A stretch of DNA of 58,627 nucleotides, from positions 1 through 58,627 of the forward strand of contig JAQSCZ010000004.1 in assembly GCA_029945665.1 (NCBI GenBank), read 5' to 3'. A program made the position numbers and the translations under genes. This document shows positions 30,893-51,196 of this stretch, piece by piece. The stretch comes from a bacterium (GTDB taxonomy: Bacteria; Bacteroidota; Bacteroidia; NS11-12g; UBA955). The notes under the pieces were generated by a model. It worked only from the letters and a program-made list of their open reading frames with translations, did not search any database and was not told where the DNA came from. Every line of letters starts with the position of its first letter. Within the stretch, counting starts at the first letter, position 1.

Positions 30893-30922
30893 AAAGCGCA
30901 AACCACTTTGGATTTGCGCTTT
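30893..30922 (-). terminator. Terminator of the CsbD-like gene
   Basis: The stem AAAGCGCAAA/TTTGCGCTTT has a 10-base loop and is followed on the minus strand by a run of seven T. It lies 65 bp after the stop at 30987. Confidence 0.8.
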
Positions 30923-30986
30923 CACGAATTACTAATATAAAGACCTTAAACTATTGCAATAGCTTGAGGGGATTTTAAGTAAATAA

Positions 30987-31211
30987 TTAAGCCGTAGCAG
31001 GTTGTGATTGCTTGATGATATCCATCACCTCTTTGCGATTTTTATGAAGTCTAGCTTCAACTCTCGTCAACATTTCCTCTTCTTTACCAGCTTCACAGCT
31101 TAAATCTGAATCGGTAAGTTGGGCATACTTTTCTTTTAACTGGATGCATTGTTTAGCCCAAGTTGCGGTAACTTTAAAAGCATCGTTTTGGTTGTTTTGA
31201 ACTTTGTCCAT
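30987..31211 (-). CDS. CsbD-like general stress protein
   Basis: A 74-residue acidic/basic helical protein starting at the ATG MDKVQNNQ (the frame runs 14 codons further but that part looks non-coding). The core WAKQCIQLKEKYAQLTDSDLSCEAGKEEEMLTRV matches the CsbD pattern W-x-x-LK-x-K-x-x-LTDDDL-x-x-x-x-GK-x-x-x-L. The function of CsbD is unknown, but it is strongly stress-induced in Bacillus (sigma B) and others. Two perfect palindromes lie just upstream. A second CsbD-like gene lies at 42556-42756. Confidence 0.72.
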   Translation of the reverse strand: MDKVQNNQNDAFKVTATWAKQCIQLKEKYAQLTDSDLSCEAGKEEEMLTRVEARLHKNRKEVMDIIKQSQPATA

Positions 31212-31226
31212 TTTGTTTTTATTTAT

Positions 31227-31262
31227 TGTGATTAAAATTAAATCACATAGCAAAGTTGCTAT
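31227..31262. promoter_or_regulatory. Two palindromes upstream of the CsbD-like gene
   Basis: TGTGATT/AATCACA (31227-31247, 7-base centre) and ATAGCAA/TTGCTAT (31247-31262, 2-base centre) abut each other 16-51 bp upstream of the ATG at 31211. They could be operator sites. The TGTGA/TCACA spacing of 11 does not fit a CRP site. Confidence 0.4.
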
Positions 31263-31353
31263 TTAACTCTTGACTATCACTTACAGAGAAGGTAACAAAT
31301 TTTACAACAATCGCAGGTTCATTTTATTTGAATACGAATTACAAATAAGCCAG

Positions 31354-31566
31354 TCACTTGTAGTTTTTTTGGATGTATTGATTCGAAAGCATATCGGACA
31401 ATGATTTATAATAATCATTTAAAACACGCGCATTTATTTCGGGCTCTTTTTCATTTGGAATTGTAACAGGCATTTCATTTATATATTTCATAAGCTCGGG
31501 CGTTTTTTCCTGAATGACTCTTAATATTGCTAGAATCTTAGCATTGATTTCTGTTTCGTTTTCCAT
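31354..31566 (-). CDS. Small hypothetical protein
   Basis: A 70-residue soluble protein with an ATG start. It contains ILAILRVIQEKTPELMKYINEM, then MPVTIPNEKEPEINARVL and a helical tail YYKSLSDMLSNQYIQ. The composition and the helix-turn-helix layout look real, but I cannot name a family. It lies on the same strand as, and 142 bp upstream of, the CsbD-like gene, so it may share stress control. Confidence 0.65.
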   Translation of the reverse strand: MENETEINAKILAILRVIQEKTPELMKYINEMPVTIPNEKEPEINARVLNDYYKSLSDMLSNQYIQKNYK

Positions 31567-31933
31567 AGTAATAATTTTTATGTGATAATTGAGGAGATTT
31601 TAAAAGCTGTATTTTAAAACAAGTCCATTGTTTAAAGACCCATTTCAATATACAAAAATCAACTTTTTAAGTACCTTTTTTTTTACAGTTTTAACGCTAT
31701 TTGTTACACAAATCACAGATTTAACCACAAAAGAATAGCCAAGATGTGTATTAAACCATTTTTGATTCCAAGTATTAAATCTTATAGCTTGATTACCCTT
31801 TTTAGATAACATAGAATTAGGTATAGCACCAAATCTAATTTCAGTGTTAGTCGTTTTTTAGCAAACGCTTGCTTGAATAGAATATCTGAAAAGCATAAGC
31901 ACTTTTTAGATATATTCCCATTTAAAATCCAAT
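31567..31933. other. Gene-free AT-rich spacer
   Basis: 367 bp between the CheB/CheR/kinase stop and the small 70-residue gene start. No ORF, RNA gene, clear hairpin terminator or consensus promoter was recognised. Confidence 0.5.
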
Positions 31934-35698: not shown

Positions 35699-35990
35699 AA
35701 TAGCTTCAATTAGATAACGAAGATAGAATTAATTAATTGGGATAAACTAAATATATTAATGAATTTCCTCACCTTCTCAAAATAGCGTCAAATAAAAGCA
35801 AACATTGCCTCACCGATTACAAGCACGTTTCAAAAAAACAGGCGATATTTGATTGATATCAATGCGTAAATTATGCAAAGCATTTTCAGAAAAGTATAAG
35901 AACTGAATTCAAAATAAAATTCATTTTTGCAGTCAATATTTAATATATCAATCAAGTTCAACTATACGCGATTTAATTTAACAAAATGAA

Positions 35991-36308
35991 ATGAAAAACC
36001 TTTTAGAAACACCCGAATTAAAAACAGCAACAATGCCTAGCAGCGAAGTAAAAGTCGCGAATATTATTGGATACGACTGGAGCTTTAAATATGAAAACGA
36101 TTCAATTAAAAAAATGAACGCCATTAGTCCCGAGAAATTGAGTAATGACATTAGCAGTATTATATATGATTCGACTGGTGGAAGTTCGAGCATACATGCG
36201 GTGAAAACACAACTAGAAAAACTGGGTTGCCAAATACTAAGCATTAGCAGCCCAGCTAACCAAAGCACTGTTTTCAGAATCGAGTTCAAATCAAAAAGGA
36301 CCGATTAG
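35991..36308 (+). CDS. Small protein resembling the end of a histidine-kinase ATPase domain
   Basis: 105 residues, ATG start, no full family match recognised. The C-terminal half, from STGGSSSIHAVKTQLEKLG to QSTVFRIEFKSK, echoes the last segment of HATPase_c domains (G-rich loop, a helix AV-x-x-x-x-EKLGG, then GSTF-x-I-x-F), but the N, F and true G boxes are missing, so ATP binding is unlikely. It lies 5 bp upstream of a stand-alone receiver gene, so the two are co-transcribed, and it is divergent from the CheB/CheR/kinase gene. A role as partner or antagonist of that receiver is an inference. Confidence 0.6.
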   Translation: MKNLLETPELKTATMPSSEVKVANIIGYDWSFKYENDSIKKMNAISPEKLSNDISSIIYDSTGGSSSIHAVKTQLEKLGCQILSISSPANQSTVFRIEFKSKRTD

Positions 36309-36313
36309 GTTTT

Positions 36314-36745
36314 ATGAATGCATTGAGATTTATAATCATCGATGATGATCGCGTGCACAACTATTTGTGTAAAATCAACATCATGTTACTTACAAATAAC
36401 AGATCGAGTGTACAAACTTTTACCGATGCCGAAGTAGGCCTCAGCTATATCATTTCGGAATATAGTCACTCTAAAACCAACCTGAGAACCATCCTATTTT
36501 TAGACTTAGAAATGCCATTGTGGAATGGCTGGCATTTCCTAGATAGCTTTGAACAACTTGACTTAGCAATTAAACAACAAATAAAAATATACATGGTATC
36601 TAGCTCGAATAATATTGCAGACATAGAAAGGGCTAGCGCCAATAAGAACATAGCGGCCCATTTTGTAAAACCATTGCCCAAAGGACTTATATCCTCTATT
36701 CTTAACGAGGAAGGAAGGCAGACCTGGCCATTAACAAATACATAA
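36314..36745 (+). CDS. Stand-alone response-regulator receiver protein
   Basis: A 143-residue CheY-like protein without an output domain. The acidic pocket is IIDDD (8-12), the phospho-Asp lies in LFLDLEMPLWNG near residue 56, MVSSSNN supplies the Ser/Thr switch, and HFVKPLP the conserved Lys. Such single-domain regulators of Bacteroidota usually pass phosphate among proteins rather than bind DNA. The gene follows the degenerate kinase-like ORF by 5 bp, and a 43-codon ORF follows it by 6 bp. Confidence 0.9.
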   Translation: MNALRFIIIDDDRVHNYLCKINIMLLTNNRSSVQTFTDAEVGLSYIISEYSHSKTNLRTILFLDLEMPLWNGWHFLDSFEQLDLAIKQQIKIYMVSSSNNIADIERASANKNIAAHFVKPLPKGLISSILNEEGRQTWPLTNT

Positions 36746-36751
36746 TTTAAC

Positions 36752-36883
36752 ATGCGCTTCTACCCTTTTATTTCAATTCGTACTTTATATAAGTCGATTA
36801 AAAAATTAAAAAAATACAATTTAGCGCGTTTGAAATTAATTTCAGAAATCAATACAAAATTAGAAAAGGAAACCTTAGAATAA
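36752..36883 (+). CDS. Possible 43-residue basic peptide
   Basis: ATG to TAA, six bases after the receiver gene. The product starts MRFYPFISIRTLYKSIKKLKK and ends in a charged helix NTKLEKETLE. The tight spacing and lack of a terminator before it suggest it is the third cistron. It has no homologue I recognise and is short enough to be chance. Confidence 0.35.
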   Translation: MRFYPFISIRTLYKSIKKLKKYNLARLKLISEINTKLEKETLE

Positions 36884-37380
36884 TTGTGGCCTAATAGGTT
36901 ATTTTACACAATGACTTTTTACACTGTTTTCAAGAACCAAGATAGTCAACCAAGTTGACTATTAAACAAATATTACTAGTGCTTCCAAAATCAGGGAAAC
37001 TATTAATTTGTAAGCTTTGGCAATCAATTAAATGAACCAAGCCTATTCATATCAATTTTAGACATGCTAAAATTGGCATTGGCTAGTAATTAACAATAAG
37101 GTTAAAACAACTGCTAATGGCGCCAAACACATTTGAAAACCATTAATTTTTAATTCGCAATTCTACATTGTTATTGTTGTAAATCCTCAGACAGATTTCT
37201 TTGCCTTCTGCCTTTGGTTATATTTTATCTGAAATGATACTAGCATGTTATGTGTAAATGCAGAATAAGAAAAAACAACCGTAATGTTCAATTAATTTTA
37301 AATGTTACAAGAAAGAGTTATACCTAATACGAATACTTAATCAAGCCCCTGTGATTAATAACTAAAGCTAAAATGGCACA
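36884..37380. other. Gene-free 497-bp region with two perfect palindromes
   Basis: ATAGTCAAC/GTTGACTAT (36942-36962, 3-base centre) and CAATTTTAG/CTAAAATTG (37053-37075, 5-base centre) are both 9-bp perfect inverted repeats without a T-run, so they look more like binding sites than terminators. Nothing else was recognised. The genes on both sides point into this region. Confidence 0.4.
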
Positions 37381-37827
37381 CTAACTACCTTTCATTTTAC
37401 GTAAATGACTAGCCTTTGCTTCATCAATTGAATGCGAAGTATGTATGTCATTTTCTACCTTTGAAAGGGCTGCAATTTTAACATAAAATAATTTAAGTTG
37501 ATTGAGTTCCTCTGGTGTCAATTCTTCTATTTCAATTAATCGATTACTGGCTGTTTGAGTACAGGCAATCAGCTCGTTTAATTTCAACTGAATGGCCATG
37601 GTATCCTTATTCTGCGACTGTTGGATAATAAACACCATCATAAAAGTAATGATAGTAGTGCCCGTATTAATGACCAATTGCCAAGTATCAGAAAAATGGA
37701 ATACTGGACCAAGTATAACCCAAACTAAGATAATGCAAAAAGCAAACACCGATGCCAAAGGATGACCAGTGGCACGGGTAACTTTGCTAGAAAAATTATT
37801 GAAGAATAACGAAAGTTTTAGATTCAT
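37381..37827 (-). CDS. Low-affinity iron permease family (PF04120) protein
   Basis: A 148-residue membrane protein. Two hydrophobic segments, HPLASVFAFCIILVWVILGP (about 22-42) and WQLVINTGTTIITFMMVFIIQ (about 49-69), are followed by the family signature QNKDTMAIQLKLNEL and a soluble helical tail. The family is named after yeast Fet4, but the short bacterial members have no proven iron transport, so substrate is uncertain. It lies 32 bp downstream of the porin-like gene on the same strand, possibly one transcript. Confidence 0.85.
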   Translation of the reverse strand: MNLKLSLFFNNFSSKVTRATGHPLASVFAFCIILVWVILGPVFHFSDTWQLVINTGTTIITFMMVFIIQQSQNKDTMAIQLKLNELIACTQTASNRLIEIEELTPEELNQLKLFYVKIAALSKVENDIHTSHSIDEAKASHLRKMKGS

Positions 37828-37859
37828 ATCATCCTAAGAAAATTGTCGCAAGAATTAGT

Positions 37860-38561
37860 CTAAAACAAAAACGTAAAACCAAGGTATAGCGATTCTGTTC
37901 TAACGTTGGCCTTCTTAATTGAATGGGTATCGCTATTTTGGGTGCTCGATTTACTTATGTTCATCAAACCATATACGCCTCGAAATCCAATATCAAAACG
38001 CATGGTATGCATTTCGTTAAGCGCAAATTCTAATCCTGCGCCATAAGCAAATCCAAAATCACTCTTTTTTAGCGCAATTACAGTTGTCATAGTATCGGTG
38101 CCATTGCCACTTGAAGATGAAATACTAGAGCCTGCATTTATTCCCAATTGTGGTCCAGCCACTAGATTGAAATTAATAGGACCTGTTTTATTCGTATTTA
38201 AAGAAATCATTAATGGGATTTTAAAATAACGCACATTTATTTTGCGATCTAAGTTTTCATCTTTGTATTTTTGAGAAAGGGAATTATACATTAATTCTCC
38301 TTGTATACCAACATGTTTACTGAAATTAAACGCTATCATACCGCCAACCCCATAACCTAATGTAACTTCACTTTTAACTGTGCCGCCAGAGGTTGTTTGC
38401 ATGTTAAAATGAGAGAAAGTTGGCATAAATCTAAATCCAAATTCAACGCGATGCAAATCACCATCTAATTGACGGAACATAAAGTTTTTGGGTACAGCAA
38501 CACTCATTCCATTAAGAATAAAAAGGAAAAAGCAAGTGCTAAAAAGAATAATTTTTTTCAT
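37860..38561 (-). CDS. Outer-membrane beta-barrel (porin-like, PF13568 type)
   Basis: A 233-residue exported protein with signal peptide MKKIILFSTCFFLFILNGMSVA. The mature part has alternating hydrophobic strands (FGFRFMPTF, GYGVGGMIAFNFSKHVGIQGELMYNSLSQKY, FGFAYGAGLEFAL) and ends in SLYLGFTFLF, an aromatic C-terminus typical of barrels. This Bacteroidota family is of unknown substrate. It probably heads a two-gene unit with the PF04120 protein, after the terminator at 38785-38810. Confidence 0.85.
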   Translation of the reverse strand: MKKIILFSTCFFLFILNGMSVAVPKNFMFRQLDGDLHRVEFGFRFMPTFSHFNMQTTSGGTVKSEVTLGYGVGGMIAFNFSKHVGIQGELMYNSLSQKYKDENLDRKINVRYFKIPLMISLNTNKTGPINFNLVAGPQLGINAGSSISSSSGNGTDTMTTVIALKKSDFGFAYGAGLEFALNEMHTMRFDIGFRGVYGLMNISKSSTQNSDTHSIKKANVRTESLYLGFTFLF

Positions 38562-38784
38562 GATATAAGGGTTTTAAATTTAAATGCCAAAAGGCATTGC
38601 AAATGTGCGACATGATTGAATAATTTTTGTTTCAAAAAATCAGCTCATTCTTACAAAATTCACACTAATTAGGTATTTAGATTTAAGCAATTCGCAACAA
38701 TCAAAATGGACCATAGAATAACTCAAAAACACCTGTCTGGATGCAAAATTAGGAGACCTTTATAAGTTAAAACAAGAACTCAAA

Positions 38785-38810
38785 AAAAACATACCAATCG
38801 GTATGTTTTT
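38785..38810 (-). terminator. CATACC hairpin, terminator of the AraC-kinase-receiver operon
   Basis: AAAAACATACC/GGTATGTTTTT with loop AATC is followed on the minus strand by a T-run and lies 37 bp after the receiver stop. The same stem recurs at 48490-48513 and 58528-58557. Confidence 0.7.
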
Positions 38811-38846
38811 GAAATATTAAATAGATTTAAAAGCAAGCATAATTCT

Positions 38847-39281
38847 TTACATGCGATCCATGTACCAGCTAATTTGCTTTTTCAATTTTTGTGTTTCCAT
38901 GAGGGTGGTCACTAGTTTTTGCAACCTCAGAAATGCAGTTTCGCTCTTTACGACATAATCGAATGCCTGGTGGTGCATACAATTAATAGCCACTTCAATT
39001 TTATCTTGCGATGACAACATAATGACAGGAATTTCAGGATTAAAACTCTTAATTTTATCAAGGGTTTCAATACCATTCATTGCATGCTCTACAATACCAT
39101 CTAAATGATAATCGAGAATAACTACTTGTGGCTGTTCACTGAGGCGAGCGATACAAAGCTCGCCAGTGGAGAATGTTTCGATTTCAAATCCAGGTATCGC
39201 ACGAAATTCAATTGAAAGTAATTTCAAGAATACGGCATCATCATCTACCAAAAAAATTTTTATTAAATTATCTTTGTTCAT
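38847..39281 (-). CDS. Response-regulator receiver protein
   Basis: A 144-residue single receiver domain: KIFLVDDDAVF (8-18), phospho-Asp in VVILDYHLDG near residue 57, MLSSQDK as the Thr/Ser switch and YVVKSE with the conserved Lys. A short C-terminal helix follows and there is no output domain. The ATG overlaps the hybrid kinase's TGA in an ATGA junction, so it is translationally coupled and most likely exchanges phosphate with that kinase through its HPt. Confidence 0.92.
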   Translation of the reverse strand: MNKDNLIKIFLVDDDAVFLKLLSIEFRAIPGFEIETFSTGELCIARLSEQPQVVILDYHLDGIVEHAMNGIETLDKIKSFNPEIPVIMLSSQDKIEVAINCMHHQAFDYVVKSETAFLRLQKLVTTLMETQKLKKQISWYMDRM

Positions 39282-41281
39282 ATATTTTTTGATTCTTTCA
39301 AACTGTTATACTCATGCTCCAATTCAATAAAGGATTGCTTGAAACCCTCTTCAAGTTTTACGACCAACGCCTCTATTCCTTCTAATCCAATTTGTTTAGA
39401 TGCAAATTCTTGAATTGATTTGGCGATGTTTTCAAAATTTGCATCCATCCCCATGATTGAAAAAGAGGGGATCATTTTATGAACAGCGGAATGCAGCAAT
39501 TTCCAATCCTTGTCTACTAAACTTTTTTTCATACTTGCTATTAAGGGCGGCGTTTGCTCTAAAAATAGACTTATCATTTCCATCATTAATTCCGGATTTG
39601 ATTTGGTGCGCGCTATCAGATAGGCCAAATTTATTGATTTCAGCTTTTCTATTTCCGGCAAAACTTCCGTTTTTATATTATCTGTATTATTAATTAAACC
39701 AATTATTTTACTGTAAAGTAAATCTTCATTTACAGGTTTTGCGAGATAATCATTCATCCCTACAGCTTTGCATTTTTCTAAATCAACTGTTGTCACATCG
39801 GCTGTTAATGCAATAATGGGAATATTAGAATGCATCTTGTTTCGAATGAAATCCGTTGTTTCAAATCCATTCATTTCAGGCATTTGAAGATCCATTAAAA
39901 TTATATCAAATTTATTTTTTTTCAATTTCTCTATTGCAATTTTGCCATTGGAGGCAATTTCCAATTTAAAACCAAAATCATCAAGAAGTGTTTTCATTAA
40001 CAATTGATTCAAAGCAATATCCTCTACTACTAAAACATTGATGTTTTCTATTTCAGATTTGACATAATTAAGCTCAGGTTCTAACACGGCCTTTTCTTTT
40101 GTTTTGTTAAAATTGAGCACAAAACTAAATGTTGACCCCTCATGGATTTTGCTTTTCAAGTTAATACTTCCCCCTTGGCCTTCTATCAATTGCTTAACAA
40201 TAGCAAGCCCCAAACCTGTGCCGCCATATAATCGTGATGTGTTACTCGAAGCTTGCTGAAAATTTTCAAATATACTTTCGGTCTTCCCTTCAGGAATGCC
40301 AATACCTGTATCACTTATTGAAAACTCAATAGTTACTTTTTGAACATCCTCTTTCAATAATTTTACACGCAGTGCAATACTTCCATGTTCAGTAAACTTT
40401 ACAGCATTGCTTATCAAGTTAAGTATTATCTGATGCAAGCGAACTGGATCTCCTGAGAGGACTTCAGGTATTTTGGTGTCATATTCCTGAACAAGTGTCA
40501 GGTTTTTTTCTTGAATCTTGGCCTCGAATAAATGCAACATAGCCGAAATTGAGGCAGACAATTTAAAGGGCGCTTTTTCAAATGTCATTTTACCTGAATC
40601 AACTTTTGCCAAGTCCAAAATATCATTAATTAAAACGATTAAGGAATCTCCACTCGTTTTAATGGCATTCAAATACTCTTTTTGTTTAACTGTTAAATCT
40701 GTCCTTAATACTACTTTTGTGAAGCCTATAATTGCGTTCATAGGCGTCCTAATTTCGTGACTCATATTTGACAAAAATTGCTGTTTAGCTTTAACTGCCT
40801 CCTCTGCAACACGGGTAGAATCTTCAGCTTTAATCGCGGCATTTTCAGCGTTTAGTTTCGCTTCCTCTGCTATCCCTGTGGCAAGCTCTGCAAAAACTCT
40901 CGCCTCTATTAATTCTTTAGCAATGCTTTTTTGATAGGTTATATCTCTTGCGACAACCACTGCTCCAATGACCTTTCCATTCTCGTCCTTATATACTGAA
41001 CCATTAAAAAGCACATCCGTCAATTTGCCATCCTTTATTGTTAAAGGATAATCTGCAACAGAACCCTTTTCAAAAACCTCTTCATACACTTCGCGTGCTT
41101 TTTGGGGATCCGTAAAATAATTTATGAAATTAGCGCCCGTTAATTCGACACGACTATAGCCCGTAACTTTCTCAAAAGCTTGATTCATATCTGTAATTAT
41201 TCCATTAACACTGATCGTAATCAAAGGATCTAAACTTGCTTCAATCAAACTTCTTGCATATCCTATTGGCTGTATTTTCAT
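39278..41281 (-). CDS. PAS-histidine kinase-receiver-HPt hybrid sensor
   Basis: A 667-residue cytosolic hybrid kinase. PAS domain about 8-125 (ARSLIEASLDPLITIS, VTGYSRVELTG), a short helical linker, HisKA with phospho-His near 175 (SNMSHEIRTPMN), HATPase (DTGIGIPEGK, GGTGLGLAIVKQL), receiver with Asp near 461 (IILMDLQMPEMNG), and HPt with His near 599 (LHSAVHKMIPSFSIMG). No membrane segment, so a soluble ligand or redox signal is likely. Its kinase core is very close to that of the CheB/CheR fusion 6 kb away, pointing to duplication. Middle gene of an AraC-kinase-receiver operon (6-bp gap, then 4-bp overlap). Confidence 0.94.
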   Translation of the reverse strand: MKIQPIGYARSLIEASLDPLITISVNGIITDMNQAFEKVTGYSRVELTGANFINYFTDPQKAREVYEEVFEKGSVADYPLTIKDGKLTDVLFNGSVYKDENGKVIGAVVVARDITYQKSIAKELIEARVFAELATGIAEEAKLNAENAAIKAEDSTRVAEEAVKAKQQFLSNMSHEIRTPMNAIIGFTKVVLRTDLTVKQKEYLNAIKTSGDSLIVLINDILDLAKVDSGKMTFEKAPFKLSASISAMLHLFEAKIQEKNLTLVQEYDTKIPEVLSGDPVRLHQIILNLISNAVKFTEHGSIALRVKLLKEDVQKVTIEFSISDTGIGIPEGKTESIFENFQQASSNTSRLYGGTGLGLAIVKQLIEGQGGSINLKSKIHEGSTFSFVLNFNKTKEKAVLEPELNYVKSEIENINVLVVEDIALNQLLMKTLLDDFGFKLEIASNGKIAIEKLKKNKFDIILMDLQMPEMNGFETTDFIRNKMHSNIPIIALTADVTTVDLEKCKAVGMNDYLAKPVNEDLLYSKIIGLINNTDNIKTEVLPEIEKLKSINLAYLIARTKSNPELMMEMISLFLEQTPPLIASMKKSLVDKDWKLLHSAVHKMIPSFSIMGMDANFENIAKSIQEFASKQIGLEGIEALVVKLEEGFKQSFIELEHEYNSLKESKNI

Positions 41282-41287
41282 TTCTAT

Positions 41288-41863
41288 TTAATTTGGTTCA
41301 TTGCCCAATTCTTCAATTGGTCGTCTTTGTTTATCTTTCAAATTTTTAAACTGGGAAGGAGATAAACCCGTCACTTTTTTAAACTGATTTGACAAATGAG
41401 CAACACTGCTATAATTCATTTTATCAGCAATTTCGGTAAAATTTAATTCTTCATAAAGTATCAATTCCTTCACCCTTTCGATTTTATGAATAATTATAAA
41501 TTGCTGAATGGTAATACCTTTTACCTCAGAAAAAACATTGGACAGATACGTGTAATCATGGTTTAGTTTTTCGCTTATAAAATCAGAATAATTAACCTTA
41601 GGCAATTCATCCGTATAATGCACCATCTGAACAATTACGTTTTGAATTTTTTCTATTAACACTGCTCGCTTGTCATCCATCAAATCAAGTCCAGAACTTA
41701 GCAATCCAGTTTTCAATGCAAGGCGTTGCTCGGAAGTAATATTTTCCATAATATCAACCTCACCTAAATCCACAACCACAAAATGCAATCCCAATTTTAA
41801 CAGCTCTTCCTTAACTGCCATTTTGCAGCGCTGGCTAACCATGTATTTAATGAATAGTTTCAA
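41288..41863 (-). CDS. AraC-family transcriptional regulator
   Basis: A 191-residue protein. The C-terminal 100 residues carry two helix-turn-helix motifs of AraC type: DYTYLSNVFSEVKGITIQQFIIIHKIERVKELI and NFTEIADKMNYSSVAHLSNQFKKVTGLSPSQFK. The first 90 residues (QRCKMAVKEELLKLGLHFVVVDLGEVDI) form a small alpha/beta part seen in other Bacteroidota AraC proteins, not the sugar-binding cupin. No effector is evident. First gene of the operon with the hybrid kinase and receiver, so it may be its transcriptional output. ATG start. Confidence 0.9.
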   Translation of the reverse strand: MKLFIKYMVSQRCKMAVKEELLKLGLHFVVVDLGEVDIMENITSEQRLALKTGLLSSGLDLMDDKRAVLIEKIQNVIVQMVHYTDELPKVNYSDFISEKLNHDYTYLSNVFSEVKGITIQQFIIIHKIERVKELILYEELNFTEIADKMNYSSVAHLSNQFKKVTGLSPSQFKNLKDKQRRPIEELGNEPN

Positions 41864-41973
41864 ATTAATTTTTCCTATTATTGGTAAATGTAGGCAAAAA
41901 GAATGTCATATTTATTTAAATTAAAAAACATCAAGAATAACAATCGAATTGATTACTTTTTTTAACCCCAATT

Positions 41974-42447
41974 TTAACTTAAGTATCTTCTTAAAATCCA
42001 AGCCATGGATTCGTGTTCTTGAATCAATCCAGTTAAGAAATCAGAGGTACCTACATCTTCAAATTTCTCTGTACATTTTTCAATATTCTCCCGCAATTGA
42101 ACAATGATTATTTCATGGTCTTGCAGAAGTTCTTTCAGCATATCTTTGGATTCAGGATATTTACCAGGATGTTCTTTTAATGTGGCCAATTTCAAAAACT
42201 CAGACATCGTGCCAATTGCATTCACCCCAAGTTTACTGGTGCGCTCGGCCAATAAATCGATGTTTTCTTCAATTGTATTGTATTGACTTTGAAAAAGCTT
42301 ATGGAGTTCCATAAAACTTTCGCCAGATACATTCCAATGAAATTTTCTTGTTTTAGTGTAAAGTAAAATCTCATTCGCCATTATTTCTGAAATTAATTCA
42401 GCTACAGCATTTAATTTTTTTTCGGATATTCCGATATTTGGTTTCAT
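41974..42447 (-). CDS. dps: Dps-type ferritin-like DNA-protection protein
   Basis: A 157-residue four-helix ferritin homologue of the Dps group. The inter-subunit ferroxidase residues are all present with Dps spacing: His37 (KFHWNV), His49, Asp64 and Glu68 (ENIDLLAER). Dps dodecamers oxidise and store iron, and protect DNA in oxidative stress. There is no Lys-rich N-terminal tail, so DNA binding is uncertain. It sits next to an AraC-kinase operon and a CsbD-like gene, fitting a stress block. It lies alone after the hairpin at 42480-42511. Confidence 0.93.
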   Translation of the reverse strand: MKPNIGISEKKLNAVAELISEIMANEILLYTKTRKFHWNVSGESFMELHKLFQSQYNTIEENIDLLAERTSKLGVNAIGTMSEFLKLATLKEHPGKYPESKDMLKELLQDHEIIIVQLRENIEKCTEKFEDVGTSDFLTGLIQEHESMAWILRRYLS

Positions 42448-42479
42448 ATTTTTTTATATTTAATTGTTGACAATTTCAA

Positions 42480-42511
42480 AAATGAAAACGACTTTTCAGC
42501 CGTTTTCATTT
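42480..42511 (-). terminator. Terminator of the small CsbD-like gene at 42556
   Basis: A perfect 11-bp stem AAATGAAAACG/CGTTTTCATTT with a 10-base loop, followed on the minus strand by TTTTTG, 45 bp after the stop. It also precedes dps by 32 bp. Confidence 0.65.
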
Positions 42512-42555
42512 CAATTTTAATAGAAATCTAGAACACTTTTTTTTAATATTTTAAT

Positions 42556-42756
42556 TTATTTACGAGCATTAAAGCTAGTTACAATTTTCATAATCTCGTC
42601 GTAATCTTTATTTAACAATTCAGCTAACCTATTTATTAGTTCATCTTCATTGCCAATGGTATAAGACAATTGCTCCTCTGTTAACTGAGGAAATAAGCAA
42701 ATTAAACGACTTGGGCTTAATTCCCAACAGCCTATGAAATTAGTATTGTTCTTCAA
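42556..42756 (-). CDS. Small CsbD-like protein
   Basis: 66 residues, ATG start. The middle PQLTEEQLSYTIGNEDELINRLAELL follows the CsbD pattern LT-x-x-D/Q-L-x-Y-x-x-G-x-EDEL, preceded by a Trp at position 11. The N-terminal Lys-rich helix of CsbD is replaced by NFIGCWELSPSRLICLF. Function is unknown; stress link is by family analogy. It is monocistronic with a strong terminator, and is the second CsbD-like gene within 12 kb. Confidence 0.6.
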   Translation of the reverse strand: MKNNTNFIGCWELSPSRLICLFPQLTEEQLSYTIGNEDELINRLAELLNKDYDEIMKIVTSFNARK

Positions 42757-43017
42757 GGTTTTATTATCATGTTAGTGCCTTAATTATCATATTACAATAT
42801 TCCATAAAATTCCAGACCATAAGCTTATACATATTTATTATATATTTACATAAATCATAGATTTCAAGAATTAAGGCCTATCAAAATCATTCGCTGTAAA
42901 GTGTGAATATTATAAAACAATTTATTGCGCATGTAAGGCTATATAACAATGCTTTGTCAAAATTTGTAGTGCTATTAATTAGCTTTATTTTATTATAGAA
43001 TTTTAAAAATATTTTAC

Positions 43018-44058
43018 ATGTTAGATATCAAAAAAGAAGGCATTGTATTGGAAATAACAACTCTCGATTTCGAGAGCGAAGCGGTATTAAATCCAGCAAT
43101 CCTGCAATTAAATAACGATGTCCACATGTTTTATAGGGCCGTCAGAAAAGGCAATTACTCTTCCATTGGCTACGCCAGATTTAATGGCCCACTTAATATA
43201 GCAGAAAGAAATGAAACACCAGTTTTAAGCCCTATTAGCAATGCCGAATCGCATGGCATAGAGGATCCTCGCATTGTTGAAATAGAAAATATGTATTATC
43301 TCAGTTATACCGCATACGATGGCCTAAATGCATTGGGGAGCTATGCTACTTCCAGCGATCTGCGTCATTTTGAAAGAAAAGGCATATTGGCGCCTCAATT
43401 AAGCTATGAAACATTTACAAGACTGGCTCAATGCAGCGGGCCACTCAATCAAAAATACGCAAGATTCAATGAAAACACCAACAACCATAAATACCCTACA
43501 AAAACAAATTTAGTTTGGGACAAGAACCTTGTATTCTTCCCAAGAAAAATTAACAATAAGTTTTACTTTCTGCACCGAATAAAACCAGACATCCAAATCG
43601 CATCCATTGCAAATCTGAACGAATTAAACAATGATTTTTGGGAAAATCAAATTTTGCATTTACACGATAATATTTTACTCTCCTCGGTATTTGACCATGA
43701 ATCTAGTTACATAGGAGCAGGCTGCCCGCCAATAGAGACTGAAAAAGGATGGCTATTAATTTACCATGGGGTACACGATACTGCCAATGGCTATGTATAC
43801 TCGGCTTGCGCATGCCTTTTAAGTCTCGAAGAACCGATTCATGAAATTGCGCGCCTACCCTATCCGCTTATTAAACCAGCATTGGAATGGGAAATAAATG
43901 GCGAAGTTAACAATGTTATCTTTCCAACTGGCACGGCGCTATTTAACGAAACTCTCTACATATACTATGGCGCTGCCGATAAATGTATCGCCTGCGCATC
44001 CGTAAATATCCACGAACTAATAAACACATTAATTAAATACCAAAGTTATGATAAATGA
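43018..44058 (+). CDS. Glycoside phosphorylase/hydrolase family GH130
   Basis: A 346-residue five-bladed beta-propeller of the GH130 family, mainly inverting beta-mannoside phosphorylases that split mannosyl linkages with phosphate. Signatures: NPAILQLNNDVHMFYRAVR, SHGIEDPRIVEIENMYYLSYTAYDG with the catalytic Asp, IGAGCPPIETEKGWLLIYHGV and the late FPTGTALFNETLYIYYGAADK. No signal peptide, so it acts in the cytoplasm. Its stop overlaps the start of the glycosyltransferase gene by 11 bp, so the pair is a coupled operon. Linkage and acceptor cannot be read from sequence. Confidence 0.9.
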   Translation: MLDIKKEGIVLEITTLDFESEAVLNPAILQLNNDVHMFYRAVRKGNYSSIGYARFNGPLNIAERNETPVLSPISNAESHGIEDPRIVEIENMYYLSYTAYDGLNALGSYATSSDLRHFERKGILAPQLSYETFTRLAQCSGPLNQKYARFNENTNNHKYPTKTNLVWDKNLVFFPRKINNKFYFLHRIKPDIQIASIANLNELNNDFWENQILHLHDNILLSSVFDHESSYIGAGCPPIETEKGWLLIYHGVHDTANGYVYSACACLLSLEEPIHEIARLPYPLIKPALEWEINGEVNNVIFPTGTALFNETLYIYYGAADKCIACASVNIHELINTLIKYQSYDK

Positions 44059-46489
44059 AATATTGCCAAGCAATTCCAACCAAAGAAGTTATTTTGAAAG
44101 CCATCTTCATTTTGGACAGGCCGCTGTAGCTAAACAAATGGACTTAAAAGCAGACCCCGTTTTACCTACAAAAGCGAACCATACTGAGATTCTAATCATC
44201 ACCTCTTATCCTCCAAGTGAATGCGGAATTGCAACCTATACACAGGATCTAAAAGACGCTATTTTTAATAAATTCAGCGATTCAATGCGCATTAAAATCT
44301 GTGCATTGGAGAATAACAATATTCACTACAATTACCCTTCTGAAGTAAAATACAAGTTGCAATCTAATGAGTTAAATGATTATGAAAAACTGGCTCATAA
44401 AATAAATGCCGACCCCAATATTCAATTGGTATTTATACAACATGAATTTGGATTATATGGTGGAAAATATGGCAGTTATATTTTACAGCTTTTCTCCTTT
44501 TTAGAAAAACCTATTATCACTACACTTCATACGGTATTGCCAAATCCTGAGATAGAAAGAAAAGAAACTATTTGCAAAATTGCGGATTTTTCAAAAAGTT
44601 TAATTGTAATGACTCAGAATGCAGCGCGAATTTTAGAAAAAGAGTATGGCATTGCAAAAGAAAAGATAGTGGTTATTCCACATGGCACACACCTTGTATC
44701 AGCGCCTTCAAGTCGAAAAATAAAACTAAAAGCCTACCTCGAAAATAGAATTATACTGAGCACATTTGGGCTACTTAGTCCGGGTAAAAGTATTGAAACA
44801 GCACTGATGGCTATGCCAGCCATTGTCAAAGAATTCCCAAACGCCTTGTACTTAATTCTCGGCAAAACACATCCCGGAATTATAAAAAATGAAGGAGAAA
44901 AATACCGCGATTTCCTGTACGAAAAAGTGAATGAATTAGAACTTACAAACAATGTCAAGTTTATAAACCATTATTTGGAGTTGAATGAAATATTAGATTA
45001 TTTACAACGTTCAGACATCTATCTTTTTACTTCTAAAGACCCCAACCAAGCGGTAAGCGGAACCTTAGCTTATGCAGTTGCTTGCGGCTGCCCTGTTGTG
45101 GCAACTCCAATTCCACATGCCAATGAATTACTAGGCAATAATCCTGAAGTTATTTTTGAATTTGGCAATTCAAATCAATTAAGCGAGGTAGTTAATAATC
45201 TACTTAAAAATCAGACTTTGCGAAAGGATATTAAAAACAACGGATTGCATCTAACAGCCGCTACTGCATGGCAAAATGCGGCCATAGCACATGCCCGTTT
45301 ATTCGAACAATTTGTATCTTCTAAAATAACATTGGATTATGCCATACCGCCTATCAATTTGAATCATATTAAACACATGACGACTGATGTCGGAATGATT
45401 CAATTTTCAAAAATAAATGAGCCAGATATCCATTCAGGGTATACACTGGATGATAACGCGAGAGCCCTAATAGCAATGTGTGCTAATTTTGAACAATCAA
45501 AAAGTAGCACCGATTTATCGATCATTAATACCTACTTAAATTTTATTGAATATTGTCAACAAAGTGATGGCAGTTTCCTAAACTACGTCGATGTAGACAA
45601 GAAATTCACATTACAAAATGAAGGTGAAAATTTAGAAGATGCCAACGGACGGGCGGTTTGGGCAATGGGATATATAATTTCCAAGGCCCCAATATTCCCT
45701 TCTTCTATGGTTGACAAAGCATCAAAATGCTTATTACTTGCTATCCCGAATTTAAATAATACACACTCTGCTCGCGCCATGGCTTTTGCAATTAAAGGCT
45801 TGTATTATTTCAACACCAATGAGGCATCAAATAATACAATATTTTTAATTAAAGTTTTAGCCAATCGCTTGGTGCAAATGTATCGCCATGAAAAAAACAC
45901 AGACTGGCATTGGTTTGAGAGCTATCTGACCTACGGCAATAGTATATTGCCAGAAGCATTATTATGTGCACACCTTGCAACTGGCGAACTCATATATAAA
46001 GATATTGCGTTCACCACTTTCGACTTTCTCTTGTCAATTATCTATAACCAAAATGGGATCCAGGTAGTTTCAAATCGTGGGTGGCATTTGAAAGGCGAAT
46101 CTGTCAATCAATATGGAGAACAGCCAATTGATGTTGCCTATACCATACTTGCCCTCGATCGCTTTTATGCAATCACTAAAAATCCTGAATACCTAACAAA
46201 ACTTAGAATTGGGTTTAATTGGTTTCTTGGCAACAATCATTTGAACCAAATTATTTATAATCCTTGCACGGGCGGCTGTTACGATGGCTTAGAAGAAACA
46301 CATGTGAATATAAACCAAGGGGCCGAATCAAGTGTAAGTTATTTAATGGCGCGTCTTGTTATGGAAAAATATATAGAACCAAAGTCTGCTTTTGAACAAA
46401 AACAAGACAATGAGCCTCATCAGATGCTTCCGAAAGCTATTGAAGCAATTATTAGGCGCTCAGAAATCAATGAAGCATTGCATGTGTAG
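44048..46489 (+). CDS. GT4 glycosyltransferase fused to an alpha/alpha-toroid domain
   Basis: An 813-residue two-part protein. The first half (about 45-430) is a GT-B glycosyltransferase of family 4: ITSYPPSECGIATYTQDL, QHEFGLYGG, VIPHGTHLV, STFGLLSPGKSIETAL, RSDIYLFTSKDPNQAVSGTLAYAVACGCPVVAT with the sugar-nucleotide Glu region. The second half (about 440-790) is helical and Trp/Asn rich (YTLDDNARALIAMC, GRAVWAMGYI, DWHWFESYLTYGNSILPEALL), like (alpha/alpha)6 barrels. Coupled to GH130 upstream, it may make or remodel a mannose-type polymer or solute (inference). ATG start by overlap. Confidence 0.88.
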   Translation: MINEILPSNSNQRSYFESHLHFGQAAVAKQMDLKADPVLPTKANHTEILIITSYPPSECGIATYTQDLKDAIFNKFSDSMRIKICALENNNIHYNYPSEVKYKLQSNELNDYEKLAHKINADPNIQLVFIQHEFGLYGGKYGSYILQLFSFLEKPIITTLHTVLPNPEIERKETICKIADFSKSLIVMTQNAARILEKEYGIAKEKIVVIPHGTHLVSAPSSRKIKLKAYLENRIILSTFGLLSPGKSIETALMAMPAIVKEFPNALYLILGKTHPGIIKNEGEKYRDFLYEKVNELELTNNVKFINHYLELNEILDYLQRSDIYLFTSKDPNQAVSGTLAYAVACGCPVVATPIPHANELLGNNPEVIFEFGNSNQLSEVVNNLLKNQTLRKDIKNNGLHLTAATAWQNAAIAHARLFEQFVSSKITLDYAIPPINLNHIKHMTTDVGMIQFSKINEPDIHSGYTLDDNARALIAMCANFEQSKSSTDLSIINTYLNFIEYCQQSDGSFLNYVDVDKKFTLQNEGENLEDANGRAVWAMGYIISKAPIFPSSMVDKASKCLLLAIPNLNNTHSARAMAFAIKGLYYFNTNEASNNTIFLIKVLANRLVQMYRHEKNTDWHWFESYLTYGNSILPEALLCAHLATGELIYKDIAFTTFDFLLSIIYNQNGIQVVSNRGWHLKGESVNQYGEQPIDVAYTILALDRFYAITKNPEYLTKLRIGFNWFLGNNHLNQIIYNPCTGGCYDGLEETHVNINQGAESSVSYLMARLVMEKYIEPKSAFEQKQDNEPHQMLPKAIEAIIRRSEINEALHV

Positions 46490-47771: not shown

Positions 47772-48371
47772 TCAATGCTGAATGATGACTACCTTTTGAA
47801 ACACTTGTTCATCGCTTAATATGCGAATATGATAGACCCCATTCGCAAATAGGTGCGTATCGATTACAGAATTTTGTCCAATATTAGCAGCATATACCAA
47901 TTGACCATTTGCTAAATAAACAAATACCTGTGCATTCGTTAATATTTCTGCCATTTGAATACTGATTTGATTATTGGCTGGATTTGGAAATAATTCTAAG
48001 TTGACTAATGAATTTTTCGTTAAATGAGTTGAAGGAATAAAATCACCAACTTTATAATATCGTTCGCATTTAACAACATTTCCACTCGTATCAAAAGCGG
48101 TAATTATTAAGGTGTAAATTCCCTTTACATTGGTGTTAATAGCACCATTCGAACCCCACTTTGAACTGATCATAATTTCAGCACTATCGGTCATATTATC
48201 TGTAACCCTAGGCAATTTCCATACATACACCGTGCCCACTTGTACTTTAATTGTATCGCCACATCCATGAATTTTAGGCGGAATTGTATCCGTTTGGGCT
48301 TTCAAAAATGTGCCGGTGAAGATAACAAACAAGAAAATTAGACCTTTTAATGCTGAGTAGTTTTTATTCAT
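47772..48371 (-). CDS. T9SS-sorted protein with HYR-like domain
   Basis: A 199-residue protein starting at the ATG MNKNYSALKG (the frame extends 36 codons upstream without coding signs). Signal peptide to about residue 25 (GTFLKAQ), a single Ig-like HYR domain (DTIPPKIHGC...IKVQVGTVYVWKLPRVTDN...GIYTLIITAFDTSGNVVKCERYYKV), and a C-terminal T9SS type A sorting domain (LELFPNPANNQISIQM ... LFANGVYHIRILSDEQVFQKVVIIQH). It is exported and attached to or released from the surface. It is a shorter paralogue of the next gene. Confidence 0.9.
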   Translation of the reverse strand: MNKNYSALKGLIFLFVIFTGTFLKAQTDTIPPKIHGCGDTIKVQVGTVYVWKLPRVTDNMTDSAEIMISSKWGSNGAINTNVKGIYTLIITAFDTSGNVVKCERYYKVGDFIPSTHLTKNSLVNLELFPNPANNQISIQMAEILTNAQVFVYLANGQLVYAANIGQNSVIDTHLFANGVYHIRILSDEQVFQKVVIIQH

Positions 48372-48489
48372 GATAATGCTATTTGTGGGACCAAAAATAA
48401 GTGTATTGCATTCTACTTTACCTTTCTCCCTTTTTTTTGACAAATTCATGACTGAATTAAGTTGCAATAAAAACTTCATTTAACTTAAA

Positions 48490-48513
48490 AAAACATACCA
48501 ATCGGTATGTTTT
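48490..48513. repeat. CATACC hairpin, second copy
   Basis: AAAACATACC/GGTATGTTTT with loop AATC, identical in stem core and loop to the copy at 38785-38810. It stands 119 bp upstream of the T9SS gene at 48371 and 236 bp beyond the stop at 48749, so it is not a simple end-of-gene terminator and may be an operator or a distal terminator. Confidence 0.6.
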
Positions 48514-48642
48514 CTCTTAAATTCTTAAATTGAATAATAGCAATTGAATGGTATAAATTTAATTGTACTTTTTTATGAGGGTATTTGAACAAAATGTAAC
48601 TCATCAAATAGCTGCAAAAAAAAACAGCAGCTATAAAAATTA

Positions 48643-48672
48643 CAAAACTCCAAACATTTGTTTGAAGTTTTG
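48643..48672 (-). terminator. Possible terminator after the 48749-49603 gene
   Basis: CAAAACTCCAAACA/TGTTTGAAGTTTTG is an inverted repeat with one mismatch, about 77 bp after the stop. The following T-run is short (TAATTTTTAT). Confidence 0.4.
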
Positions 48673-48748
48673 TCGGAGAGAGACTGACTATAATTAGCAC
48701 TTATTTGATCTTTTCAGGTGCTAGAACTGCACCTCTTTTTTTCGAAAC

Positions 48749-49603
48749 TTAATGTTGAACTACTATTACTTTATTCAATATTACACCTCCTCCAGTTAGA
48801 GCAAGCGTATATAATCCATTCGCTAGCCCATCACTATCAATTCTAATTGAACTATTCATTTCAGATTGGTATAATACCCTACCATCAACTGCTATCAAAC
48901 GAATCAACATTGGTTCAATCAAATTAAAATCGATCAATCCAACTTCAATATAAGTTTGCGCAGGATTTGGGAAAACAGTCATTTGTAACGATGAAAGTGT
49001 ATTTAAAGCGGCAGTCGGAGCGCATTCCAAAGCTACCTTTACAACCCTAATTTTGGTGGTAAGATTACCGCTAGGATCTGTGGCCTCATAAACATCCGTA
49101 TAGTACCCAATAATATTAGGATTGACATCACTCATTTTTAAATTAAGTGAAATTTGATTATTGGTATAATAATTATCACTTACCTTTGGTTGTATTCTAA
49201 TGTAAGCAGTTCTCCATTTCACACAAACGGTATCACTTGTTTGCAAGTCAATAGTGGGAGGAATACAATCATCTACCTTAAATGATACATACCTAACAGC
49301 CCTATTCCCATTGGTATCTATTGCCTCAAATTTAGCTACATAATTACCTCTTATTAGCGAATTTAATGGACCATTGGGTTGTTCCCATGTATTTGTTACC
49401 ATTATATCCATAGTCCGCGATTGATTGTCACTTACAATTGGATCCTTAAGAATAAACACAGAGCCTAATTGAATACAATTAGTGTCCGCTTGGGTTATAA
49501 TTATGGTTGGCGGGATCGTATCCTTTTGAGCCTTTAATGGATTGGCCAAAAGAAAAGCGAACCCCAGTAAAAGAAGTGTAGTTTGTAAATTTTTATTTTT
49601 CAT
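48749..49603 (-). CDS. T9SS-sorted protein with two HYR-like domains
   Basis: A 284-residue protein with signal peptide ending NPLKAQ. Two Ig-like repeats begin DTIPPTIIIT and DCIPPTIDLQ, each with DN, GNYVAKFEAID.. or GYYTDVYEATD.. and a closing R-V-V-x-V strand, as in HYR/DUF5011 cadherin-like domains. The C-terminus is a T9SS type A sorting domain (MTVFPNPAQTYIEVGL ... GLANGLYTLALTGGGVILNKVIVVQH). Cys residues recur at the start of each repeat. It probably arose by duplication with the downstream 199-residue gene. It may be an adhesin or matrix component, but no ligand is evident. Confidence 0.9.
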   Translation of the reverse strand: MKNKNLQTTLLLLGFAFLLANPLKAQKDTIPPTIIITQADTNCIQLGSVFILKDPIVSDNQSRTMDIMVTNTWEQPNGPLNSLIRGNYVAKFEAIDTNGNRAVRYVSFKVDDCIPPTIDLQTSDTVCVKWRTAYIRIQPKVSDNYYTNNQISLNLKMSDVNPNIIGYYTDVYEATDPSGNLTTKIRVVKVALECAPTAALNTLSSLQMTVFPNPAQTYIEVGLIDFNLIEPMLIRLIAVDGRVLYQSEMNSSIRIDSDGLANGLYTLALTGGGVILNKVIVVQH

Positions 49604-49798: not shown

Positions 49799-51196
49799 TT
49801 GTTTGCAGTAATAGATATAGAGACCACTGGCGGGCGCCCCGAGCGCGATAAAATTACCGAAATCGCCATACTTTTACACGATGGCGAAAAAGTCGTGCAA
49901 CGCTACTGCAAACTCATCAATCCCCGCTGTAAAATCCCTTATCAGATTACACAACTCACCGGAATTTCGGATGATATGGTGCGCGAAGCTCCTTACTTTT
50001 ACGAATTGGCCAAAGAGATTATTGAACTCACAAAAGATGCCATTTTTGTAGCCCACAATGTGCGTTTCGATTATGGTTTTGTTAAAGCGGCCTTTGCTGA
50101 CCTGGGTTATAACTACCAACGAAAAACGCTCTGCACAGTACGCCTTAGCAGAACAACTTTCAAAGGTCTTCCCTCCTATAGTTTAGGTCGGTTGTGCGAT
50201 AGCCTTGGCATAAAACTCAGCAACCGCCACCGTGCCCTGGGAGATGCTGAAGCGACTGCTATTTTACTCGGTAAAATATTTGAACAAAAACAAATCGATG
50301 AGCCCGATTGGATGAACAAGGAAACGAAGAAAACAAGTATTCCTCCGCTTCTTCAAGAATCAGTTTTAAATAACATATCAGAAGGCATTACTGGCGTTTA
50401 TTATTTTCACGACCAACTTGGCAATGTCATTTATATTGGCAAGGCCATTGATATCAAAAAACGCATCTTACAACATTTTGCACTCACCGCCAAAGGCAGT
50501 CGAAGTTCTATTCAATTAAAAAGTGAGATAGCCGATATTAGCTATGAACCAACAGGTAGCGAATTAGTCGCATTACTTTTAGAATCAGATGAAATAAAAA
50601 GAATCAAACCGCTCTACAACATCATGCAAAAACGCAGCAGGGCCATTCCCTACTACGGTATTTTTTCGCAATACGATTCCTTCGGCTACGTGACTTTGAA
50701 CATCGAAAAATTAAAAGAAGGATCAGAACCGATAAGCACAGCAGATAATATCGCATCGGCTCGCGAGCAGTTATATAAAATGATAGAAAGGTATAACCTA
50801 TGCTTAACCAAATGTAATTTGCATCAATTGGGAGGACCCTGTTTCGATTATCAATTGCACAAATGCAAAGGAGCATGTATTTCAAAAGAAGATGCCAACA
50901 ACTACAACGAAAGAGCGTTTGAAGCCATTCGCAAATACAGTTTTCAAAGTGAGAGTTTTTTGTTGATAGGAAAAGGGCGACATATTCAAGAAAAAGCAGT
51001 GGTTTGCATTGAACGCGGTCAATACAAAGGCTTTGGATACATTGATTTGAGTTTTGGCGAACCCGATATTGATGCAATGCGCGAAGCCATCAAAAAATAT
51101 CCGCATAACCGGGACATACAACAAATACTTTGCACCAATATGGGTAAACACCAAAAGGTGGTGTATGAGTTGGAAAAGCGCGAGACGCAAGGCTGA
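49799..51196 (+). CDS. DEDDh exonuclease fused to GIY-YIG nuclease (DnaQ/UvrC-like)
   Basis: A 465-residue protein starting with TTG. N-terminal 3'-5' exonuclease of DnaQ (epsilon) type: ExoI VIDIETTGG, ExoII AHNVRFDYGFV, ExoIII HRALGDAEAT. A GIY-YIG domain follows (about 195-280: GVYYFHDQLGNVIYIGKAIDIKKRILQHF, with the catalytic Glu in LLLESDEIK), as in UvrC or Cho. The C-terminal part has a Cys cluster (LCLTKCN, GGPCFDYQLHKCKGAC) like that after GIY-YIG in UvrC. The fusion is known in Bacteroidota and some others, with a probable repair role. No RNase H-like UvrC C-terminus is present. Confidence 0.9.
   Translation: MFAVIDIETTGGRPERDKITEIAILLHDGEKVVQRYCKLINPRCKIPYQITQLTGISDDMVREAPYFYELAKEIIELTKDAIFVAHNVRFDYGFVKAAFADLGYNYQRKTLCTVRLSRTTFKGLPSYSLGRLCDSLGIKLSNRHRALGDAEATAILLGKIFEQKQIDEPDWMNKETKKTSIPPLLQESVLNNISEGITGVYYFHDQLGNVIYIGKAIDIKKRILQHFALTAKGSRSSIQLKSEIADISYEPTGSELVALLLESDEIKRIKPLYNIMQKRSRAIPYYGIFSQYDSFGYVTLNIEKLKEGSEPISTADNIASAREQLYKMIERYNLCLTKCNLHQLGGPCFDYQLHKCKGACISKEDANNYNERAFEAIRKYSFQSESFLLIGKGRHIQEKAVVCIERGQYKGFGYIDLSFGEPDIDAMREAIKKYPHNRDIQQILCTNMGKHQKVVYELEKRETQG

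Follow-up and report, generated by a model that had tools for sequence, protein, structure and literature searches.

A GH130 gene overlapping a GT4-like/(alpha/alpha)6 toroid fusion gene in a Bacteroidota contig: candidate genes for an intracellular mannoside

We analyzed a pair of overlapping genes in contig JAQSCZ010000004.1 (GenBank assembly GCA_029945665.1) of a UBA955 bacterium of the Bacteroidota; the whole stretch of 58,627 nucleotides is referred to as the window. The first gene encodes a GH130 protein and the second a fusion of a GT4-like domain of GT-B fold with an (alpha/alpha)6 toroid. In the reading that we favor, with about even confidence, the two proteins would form a cytosolic module for the synthesis and recycling of an oligosaccharide or small polymer that contains mannose, through the mannose-1-phosphate (Man-1-P)/GDP-mannose pool and under stress or in stationary phase. 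The mannosyl links of the product are most likely beta-1,2. An earlier note on this DNA had described two genes overlapping by 11 bp and lacking signal peptides, and the analysis bears out both points. The two open reading frames (ORFs) are present with that overlap (Table 1), and neither N-terminus holds a hydrophobic stretch: the best 12-residue mean hydrophobicity within the first 40 residues is 0.94 for GH130 and 0.30 for the fusion, compared with 2.57 and 2.77 for two exported-looking proteins of the window.

The window GH130 belongs to its family by a PF04041 match of 163.8 bits against a cut-off of 26 (E 6e-48), and its structural model, with a predicted local distance difference test score (pLDDT) of 94.1, matches GH130 structures at Z 34–41. 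The closest solved fold is the beta-1,2-oligomannan phosphorylase Teth514_1788 (9gph, Z 40.7, 37% identity), tied with Teth514_1789, while beta-1,4 enzymes score about 37 and below and the Leishmania GT108 enzymes about 23–25. According to the available passages of PMC4599007, GH130 enzymes have an invariant Asp as acid; in BT3780 it is preceded by Glu (the pair Glu141-Asp142), where GH130_1 and GH130_2 have Tyr, and Lys199 sets the beta-1,2 specificity. The same passages assign three basic phosphate-holding residues to the phosphorylases, which the hydrolases do not have (Glu227 and Glu268 in BT3780). To compare these features we used 80 type A proteins, that is, GH130s assigned by score to the window protein. 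The Glu-Asp pair at the putative acid is kept in 79 of them, the remaining one being a gap. D83, N25 and D321, which we equated by motif with Asp131, Asn73 and Asp344 of BF0772 (available passages of PMC4264767), are each kept in 79/80. K169 is present in all 80 and probably corresponds to Lys199; the aligned residue is Lys in 9fj8, 7fip, 5b0p and 9erg and Arg in TM1225 (1vkd), the sole beta-1,4 sequence aligned. Because these residues match those of beta-1,2 enzymes, they support beta-1,2 mannosyl linkages.

The phosphate site is altered. Two putative ligands, R187 and H250, are kept, and the third position is occupied by Y231 in place of the basic residue of a phosphorylase; across type A this site holds Tyr in 47, His in 23, Asn in 9 and Arg in 1. 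The Glu pair of the hydrolase BT3780 is absent as well, with R187 in 80/80 and neither Glu nor Asp at site 231 in any type A protein (sites matched by spacing). At the same site the long type C proteins (>400 aa, n = 27) invariably have Gln, and type B proteins (n = 25, 2 of them partial) have Lys (20), Arg (3) or His (2). With two of the three phosphate ligands kept, types A and C are by sequence neither ordinary phosphorylases nor hydrolases, and most type B proteins look like ordinary phosphorylases by their residues. We therefore call the window GH130 phosphorylase-like, not a proven phosphorylase.

The N-terminal half of the fusion is GT4-like both by sequence (PF00534, 68.5 bits, E 7e-19) and by fold. 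The AlphaFold2 model, built from a 65-sequence alignment, has a mean pLDDT of 89.9 and a predicted template modeling score of 0.87; the N-terminal 42 residues fall below a pLDDT of 50 and are variable among relatives. Its nearest GT-B folds are sucrose-phosphate synthase (SPS, 6kih), HepE, MshA and PimA at Z about 34–35, with BshA also among them. A comparison with a viral fold library was not helpful, giving GT-B-like or unnamed viral proteins among the matches listed. The available part of PMC3898925 states an EX7E donor motif for all GT4 structures. Unlike the GT4 retaining transferases MshA, PimA, HepE and SPS, the fusion has Q-X7-Y at this site in 147 of 149 distinct sequences and Q-X7-D in the other 2; these sequences come from two sets that share organisms (loci L033 and L109 look alike). 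An EX7E-like pattern was found in none of the 149 within residues 301–380, and the broad form of the pattern, which occurs somewhere in 18 of them, never lies in that segment. The EX7E-like motif was present in 24/24 other GT4 ORFs at fusion loci, but these were selected by likeness to two EX7E-bearing neighbors, and the comparison shows only that the loci also hold ordinary GT4s.

The position that we equated by hand with Arg196 of PimA, which we take to be the diphosphate-binding Arg, seems replaced too: of 65 fusions, 59 have Leu there, 4 have Met and 2 have Phe. By contrast, E133, H161, H212, K247, T274, H275, R287, Q334, S337 and G338 are invariant in 65/65, and the length of this list argues against a dead domain. 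Thus, of the GT4 transferase proposed in the earlier note, the family match and the GT-B fold hold, and the canonical donor motif does not, being replaced in 149/149 fusions.

Pfam gave no family for the C-terminal 385 aa of the fusion at E<=0.01 (best 0.069). The model, compared with glycoside hydrolase and epimerase toroids, places an (alpha/alpha)6 toroid at residues 433–777, in agreement with the (alpha/alpha)6-like half of about 350 residues suggested before. YPO2471 (7TEM) is the closest toroid by fold and is also retrieved by the fusion profile in sequence (E 2e-22); it has the DD and GAES motifs in common with the fusion. It differs in being a stand-alone protein, named putative exported protein and of unknown function, and an open-access literature search found no paper on it. 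The next fold matches are the GH9-like 6gdt and 3h7l (Z about 31) and cellobiose 2-epimerases (Z about 29.7). Toroid residues invariant in 65/65 are D468, D469, N470, R472, W620, W622, Y629, N631, Q692 and E760; GAES is GGES in 2/14 plasmid fusions. In GH9-type inverting (alpha/alpha)6 toroids an Asp pair is the base and a late Glu the acid. The invariant D468-D469 and E760 could form such a site, by a comparison of motifs and of fold (Z about 31).

We also considered an epimerase. AGE and cellobiose 2-epimerases use a pair of catalytic His, and cellobiose/mannobiose 2-epimerases work with GH130 in mannan breakdown. Although these share the toroid fold with the fusion, no His is invariant within fusion residues 430–780 among 65 sequences (H440 is nearly so), and the epimerase reading was rejected on this ground. 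Separately, AGE-type epimerase genes (PF07221) lie directly after GH130 on two Rhizobium plasmids (L203, 9658-10791; L205, 9661-10791). Stand-alone toroids of about 430 aa occur in three loci with an ATP-binding cassette (ABC) importer, the fusion and GH130s (L097, 11728-13008; L088, 5441-6733; L099, 11681-12982), and those of L097 and L088 match no Pfam family at E<=0.01. In L104 and L183 the GT4-like part and the toroid are two adjacent ORFs, possibly through a frameshift or nonsense mutation.

To assess how often the two genes travel together we searched 395 Bacteroidota genomes, accepting GH130 matches at E<=1e-10. The fusion was found in 74 genomes (in two of them as two pieces). GH130 is present in all 74 and in 52 of the 321 others, and the pairing therefore exceeds chance (Fisher p 3e-46, uncorrected for kinship). 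Type A GH130 occurs in 23 genomes, all with the fusion, and adjoins it in all except G080, G099 and G150, that is, in 20. By tblastn, 58 of the 75 fetched Bacteroidota fusion loci have a GH130 within the stretch: type A in 20, type B in 21 and type C in 25, with B and C together in 8. ORF calling, which misses genes overlapping longer frames, found GH130 in 54 of 73 full-length fusion loci. A second set was drawn from a contig scan as the best 80 of at least 583 fusion relatives and left 76 usable loci. With ORF calling, a same-strand GH130 lies at most 150 bp from the fusion in 38/73 and 55/76 loci of the two sets; in the latter 55 it is upstream, and the genes overlap in 32. GH130 was absent by ORF calling from 13/76 loci, on which tblastn was not repeated.

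The second set reaches well beyond Bacteroidota. Its fusion loci include Patescibacteria, an Omnitrophota bin and bins labelled Lokiarchaeota, Woesearchaeota, Nanoarchaeota and Bathyarchaeota, and the GH130-fusion order recurs in Patescibacteria and archaeal bins. In the Nanoarchaeota and Bathyarchaeota bins GH130 is not directly upstream of the fusion, and bin contamination is possible. Similar pairs were also found in Fusobacteriota, Deinococcus and Alphaproteobacteria. The pair thus recurs across phyla, and a lack of conservation, which the earlier note would have counted against its proposal, was not observed. Within the genus of the window the full fusion was present in just 1/12 other genomes, with several of them incomplete, so it is accessory there. 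In a Lutibacter bin (L151, 4065-7983) three consecutive GH130 genes precede the fusion, likely by local duplication.

Plasmids provided further gene neighborhoods. We read 14 loci from 28 fusion-bearing plasmid records; several are close relatives, and the counts are not independent. All 14 fusions carry Q-X7-Y, as Q..SGT in 13 and with SGS in one. GH130 adjoins the fusion in 13 loci and is one gene apart in Deinococcus, where it is annotated as hypothetical and matches PF04041 at E 2e-49. The same gene run contains manC in 6 loci, an annotated class I mannose-6-phosphate isomerase (MPI) in 4 and a phosphomannomutase (PMM) in 2; eight loci have one or more of the three. Chaperone genes (GroESL, Hsp20, DnaK/GrpE) lie near the pair in six loci, all of them among these eight. 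In Sphingobium yanoikuyae the order on one strand is groES-groL-manC-MPI-fusion-GH130-PMM-response regulator, and Pfam confirmed ManC and PMM. In loci L198, L200, L201, L202 and L208 the pair was seen near integrases/transposases, toxin-antitoxin, CsbD or chaperone genes. These surroundings suggest mobile stress islands.

Because the plasmid pairs accompany manC/MPI/PMM and chaperone genes, we read the pair as a cytosolic, stress-linked mannoside module. The reading is further supported by the co-occurrence of the two genes (74/74 fusion genomes and 23/23 type A genomes), by the lack of signal-peptide-like N-termini, and by the window's own genome, which encodes a ManC-like protein (TIGR01479, E 8e-90, below the family cut-off) and two proteins of the phosphoglucomutase (PGM)/PMM family. 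Type B GH130s, found in 21/75 Bacteroidota loci and mostly with all three phosphate ligands, and the Teth514_1786-1789 precedent, with GH130s beside manC and a GT4, point the same way. In this mechanism GH130 would transfer mannosyl units to and from a beta-mannoside, with Man-1-P or some other activated mannose as the exchange partner; the GT-B domain would add or remove a partner residue at a donor site other than the standard nucleotide-sugar site; and the toroid fused to it, which has the acidic pair and late Glu known from inverting (alpha/alpha)6 glycosidases, would trim or remodel the product. Which partner uses GDP-mannose, what linkage is formed and what the toroid does are inferred, as are the substrate, product and direction of the pair. 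The eight plasmid loci with mannose genes, six of them with chaperones, also favor the intracellular mannose metabolite of the earlier note, although the substrate and product remain putative.

Several observations weigh against this reading. GH130 is missing from the fetched stretch in 17/75 Bacteroidota loci by tblastn. The GH130s beside manC/MPI/PMM are 409–449 aa long, with Gln at the third ligand site, and are not of type A. The Sphingobium protein annotated as MPI gave no isomerase domain in Pfam, and a type I mannose-6-phosphate isomerase was not found in the window's own draft genome. With the third phosphate ligand absent in type A, phosphorolysis is not certain. Finally, in L088, L097 and L099 the pair lies with a free toroid and an ABC importer for sugars, an arrangement that looks catabolic.

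These three loci also argue for a purely catabolic pair. In that case GH130 and the toroid would degrade imported beta-mannoside oligosaccharides in the cytosol, and the Man-1-P would enter glycolysis. The importers were recognized by eye; a GH2-type protein accompanies them in L097 (Pfam) and L088 (same ORF cluster), and known GH130 phosphorylases work in catabolism according to the available text of PMC8950772. On the other hand, no importer, SusC/D or glycanase was recognized beside the window pair in the part examined, and the manC, annotated MPI and PMM genes beside the Sphingobium pair point to mannose activation. We regard a purely catabolic role as unlikely. The related idea of a dietary-glycan locus was rejected for the window: neither SusC/D nor an exported glycanase was recognized near the pair among ten Pfam-scanned proteins and, by eye, the ORFs of 30000-43500, and the genome has a single PF04041 match. 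Exported partners in a dietary-glycan clade, the other outcome that the earlier note named as adverse, were thus not seen among these neighbors.

The pair might instead build or trim a mannosylated lipid or surface glycan precursor at the cytosolic face of the envelope. Of the 75 Bacteroidota loci, 16–21 have ORF clusters that we identified by eye as MlaE/MlaD-like and ABC ATPase, and the closest GT-B folds include MshA, BshA and PimA. Patescibacterial and archaeal loci repeatedly contain a second GT4, a PIG-L deacetylase and a GH100/amylo-glucosidase-like protein (Pfam on L170, others by eye from N-termini), and the first two would fit envelope synthesis. Against this, Mla-like genes accompany just part of the loci, and it would be unusual for an envelope pathway to have a soluble GH130 recycler next to it. 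Flippase, polymerase and polyprenyl-phosphate transferase genes are not annotated in the 14 plasmid loci, where no dedicated search for them was made. We consider envelope synthesis a doubtful explanation on balance. The PIG-L deacetylase adjoins a GT4 of about 380 aa near the fusion in L164, L170, L174, L176, L179 and the Bacteroidota locus L059, with EX7E in all four such GT4s checked (Pfam for L170 only). GT4/deacetylase pairs act in mycothiol and bacillithiol synthesis, and the PIG-L/GT4 arrangement resembles these, by analogy.

Among described systems, the Thermoanaerobacter locus Teth514_1786-1789 is nearest to the proposed cytosolic mannoside module. As presented in the available passages of PMC4264767, this beta-1,2-mannan salvage locus holds two GH130 phosphorylases beside manC (mannose-1-phosphate guanylyltransferase) and a GT4 mannosyltransferase; its GH130s are of beta-1,2 type and provide the closest solved structures to the window protein. 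Unlike in the window, these passages describe the GT4 as GDP-mannose-dependent and mention no toroid fusion, the GH130s keep three basic phosphate ligands, and the locus has an ABC importer. In the Leishmania mannogen cycle, GT108 mannosyltransferase/phosphorylases act on an intracellular beta-1,2-mannan reserve (available text of PMC8950772). It shares a GH130-like propeller and Man-1-P chemistry with the window pair, but the cycle is eukaryotic, that text mentions no GT-B/toroid partner, and the likeness to the GH130 model is one of fold only (6q50, Z 24.9, 11% identity). The window pair may work like either system, from which it differs by the fused toroid and by both donor sites.

A bolder version would make the pair a bacterial and archaeal counterpart of the mannogen cycle, run by an unrecognized enzyme. 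The GT-B domain, with QX7Y for EX7E, would be nucleotide-independent (Man-1-P-exchanging, phosphorylase-like) and would work together with a beta-1,2-mannosyl GH130 and with the toroid as an in-line glycosidase. The mannoside reserve that they form would be tied to stress and would range across Patescibacteria, archaeal bins, Bacteroidota and Sphingomonads; we offer this as speculation that is improbable as a whole. Least probable, with only a slim chance, is that the GT-B domain is a non-transferase binding scaffold or regulator presenting an oligosaccharide to the toroid hydrolase and GH130: EX7E is replaced in every fusion and the PimA Arg196 site is Leu/Met/Phe in 65/65, but the many other invariant GT-B residues look like a working active site. 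Judged from titles and the starts of abstracts, no description of the GT4-like/toroid fusion was recognized in the open-access literature, and it seems undescribed there.

Table 1. Features of the gene pair and its neighborhood in the window
Feature	Position	Strand	Details
GH130 gene (type A)	43018..44058	+	346 aa; five-bladed propeller; PF04041 E 6e-48
E82-D83, putative catalytic-acid Asp preceded by Glu as in BT3780	43261..43266	+	79/80 type A, remaining one a gap
K169, likely beta-1,2 determinant	43522..43524	+	80/80 type A; presumed match to BT3780 Lys199
R187, putative phosphate ligand, kept	43576..43578	+	80/80 type A
Y231, position of third basic phosphate ligand	43708..43710	+	Arg/Lys in 9fj8, 7fip, 5b0p, 1vkd, 9erg
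H250, putative phosphate ligand, kept	43765..43767	+	79/80 type A
Gene overlap, 11 bp	44048..44058	+	GH130 end/fusion start
GT4-like/(alpha/alpha)6 toroid fusion gene	44048..46489	+	813 aa; Pfam and AlphaFold2 model
GT-B domain, residues 46-426	44183..45325	+	6kih Z 35.4, HepE 35.2, MshA and PimA 34.1
Q334-X7-Y342, replacing EX7E donor motif	45047..45073	+	Fusion alignment
Toroid domain, residues 433-777	45344..46378	+	7tem Z 39.8, root-mean-square deviation 2.3, 336 aligned
D468-D469-N470, acidic pair, candidate catalytic site	45449..45457	+	Invariant 65/65; DD aligned in 7TEM
G758-A-E760-S, candidate catalytic site	46319..46330	+	E760 65/65; GAES aligned in 7TEM
Dps-like ferritin, divergent neighbor	41974..42447	-	PF00210 E 7e-26; same ORF cluster in 6/75 loci
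AraC-type regulator	41288..41863	-	Same ORF cluster in 6/75 loci
Low-affinity iron permease	37381..37827	-	PF04120; cluster of same family in 7/75 loci

The block of stress genes that had been noted next to the pair is present; it comprises the Dps-like ferritin, the iron permease, a hybrid kinase and the AraC-type regulator. Near this block lie two large hybrid sensor kinases, one at 31934-35698 (CheB-CheR-kinase-receiver by eye) and one at 39278-41281 (PAS-HisKA-receiver by Pfam). Downstream of the pair are proteins of unknown function sorted by the type IX secretion system (47772-49603) and a DnaQ-type exonuclease fused to a GIY-YIG/UvrC-like part (49799-51196; Pfam and NCBIfam matches). 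The Bacteroidota promoter pattern has no match upstream of the window GH130 gene; its 12 matches in the window, with 8.05 expected by shuffling and 12 reached in 13/100 shuffles, support no claim.

Our analysis thus connects a widespread gene pair, found in phyla that include some Patescibacteria and called only "GT4 family" and "GH130" in annotated records, with a candidate intracellular mannoside. It defines GH130 types with an altered phosphate site and a large set of GT4-like proteins that lack the donor motif that PMC3898925, in its available part, reports for all GT4 structures, and it gives a likely context for the toroid YPO2471. Should the product serve as a reserve or protectant, the pair would give bacteria under stress a mannose-based equivalent of glycogen or trehalose for survival.

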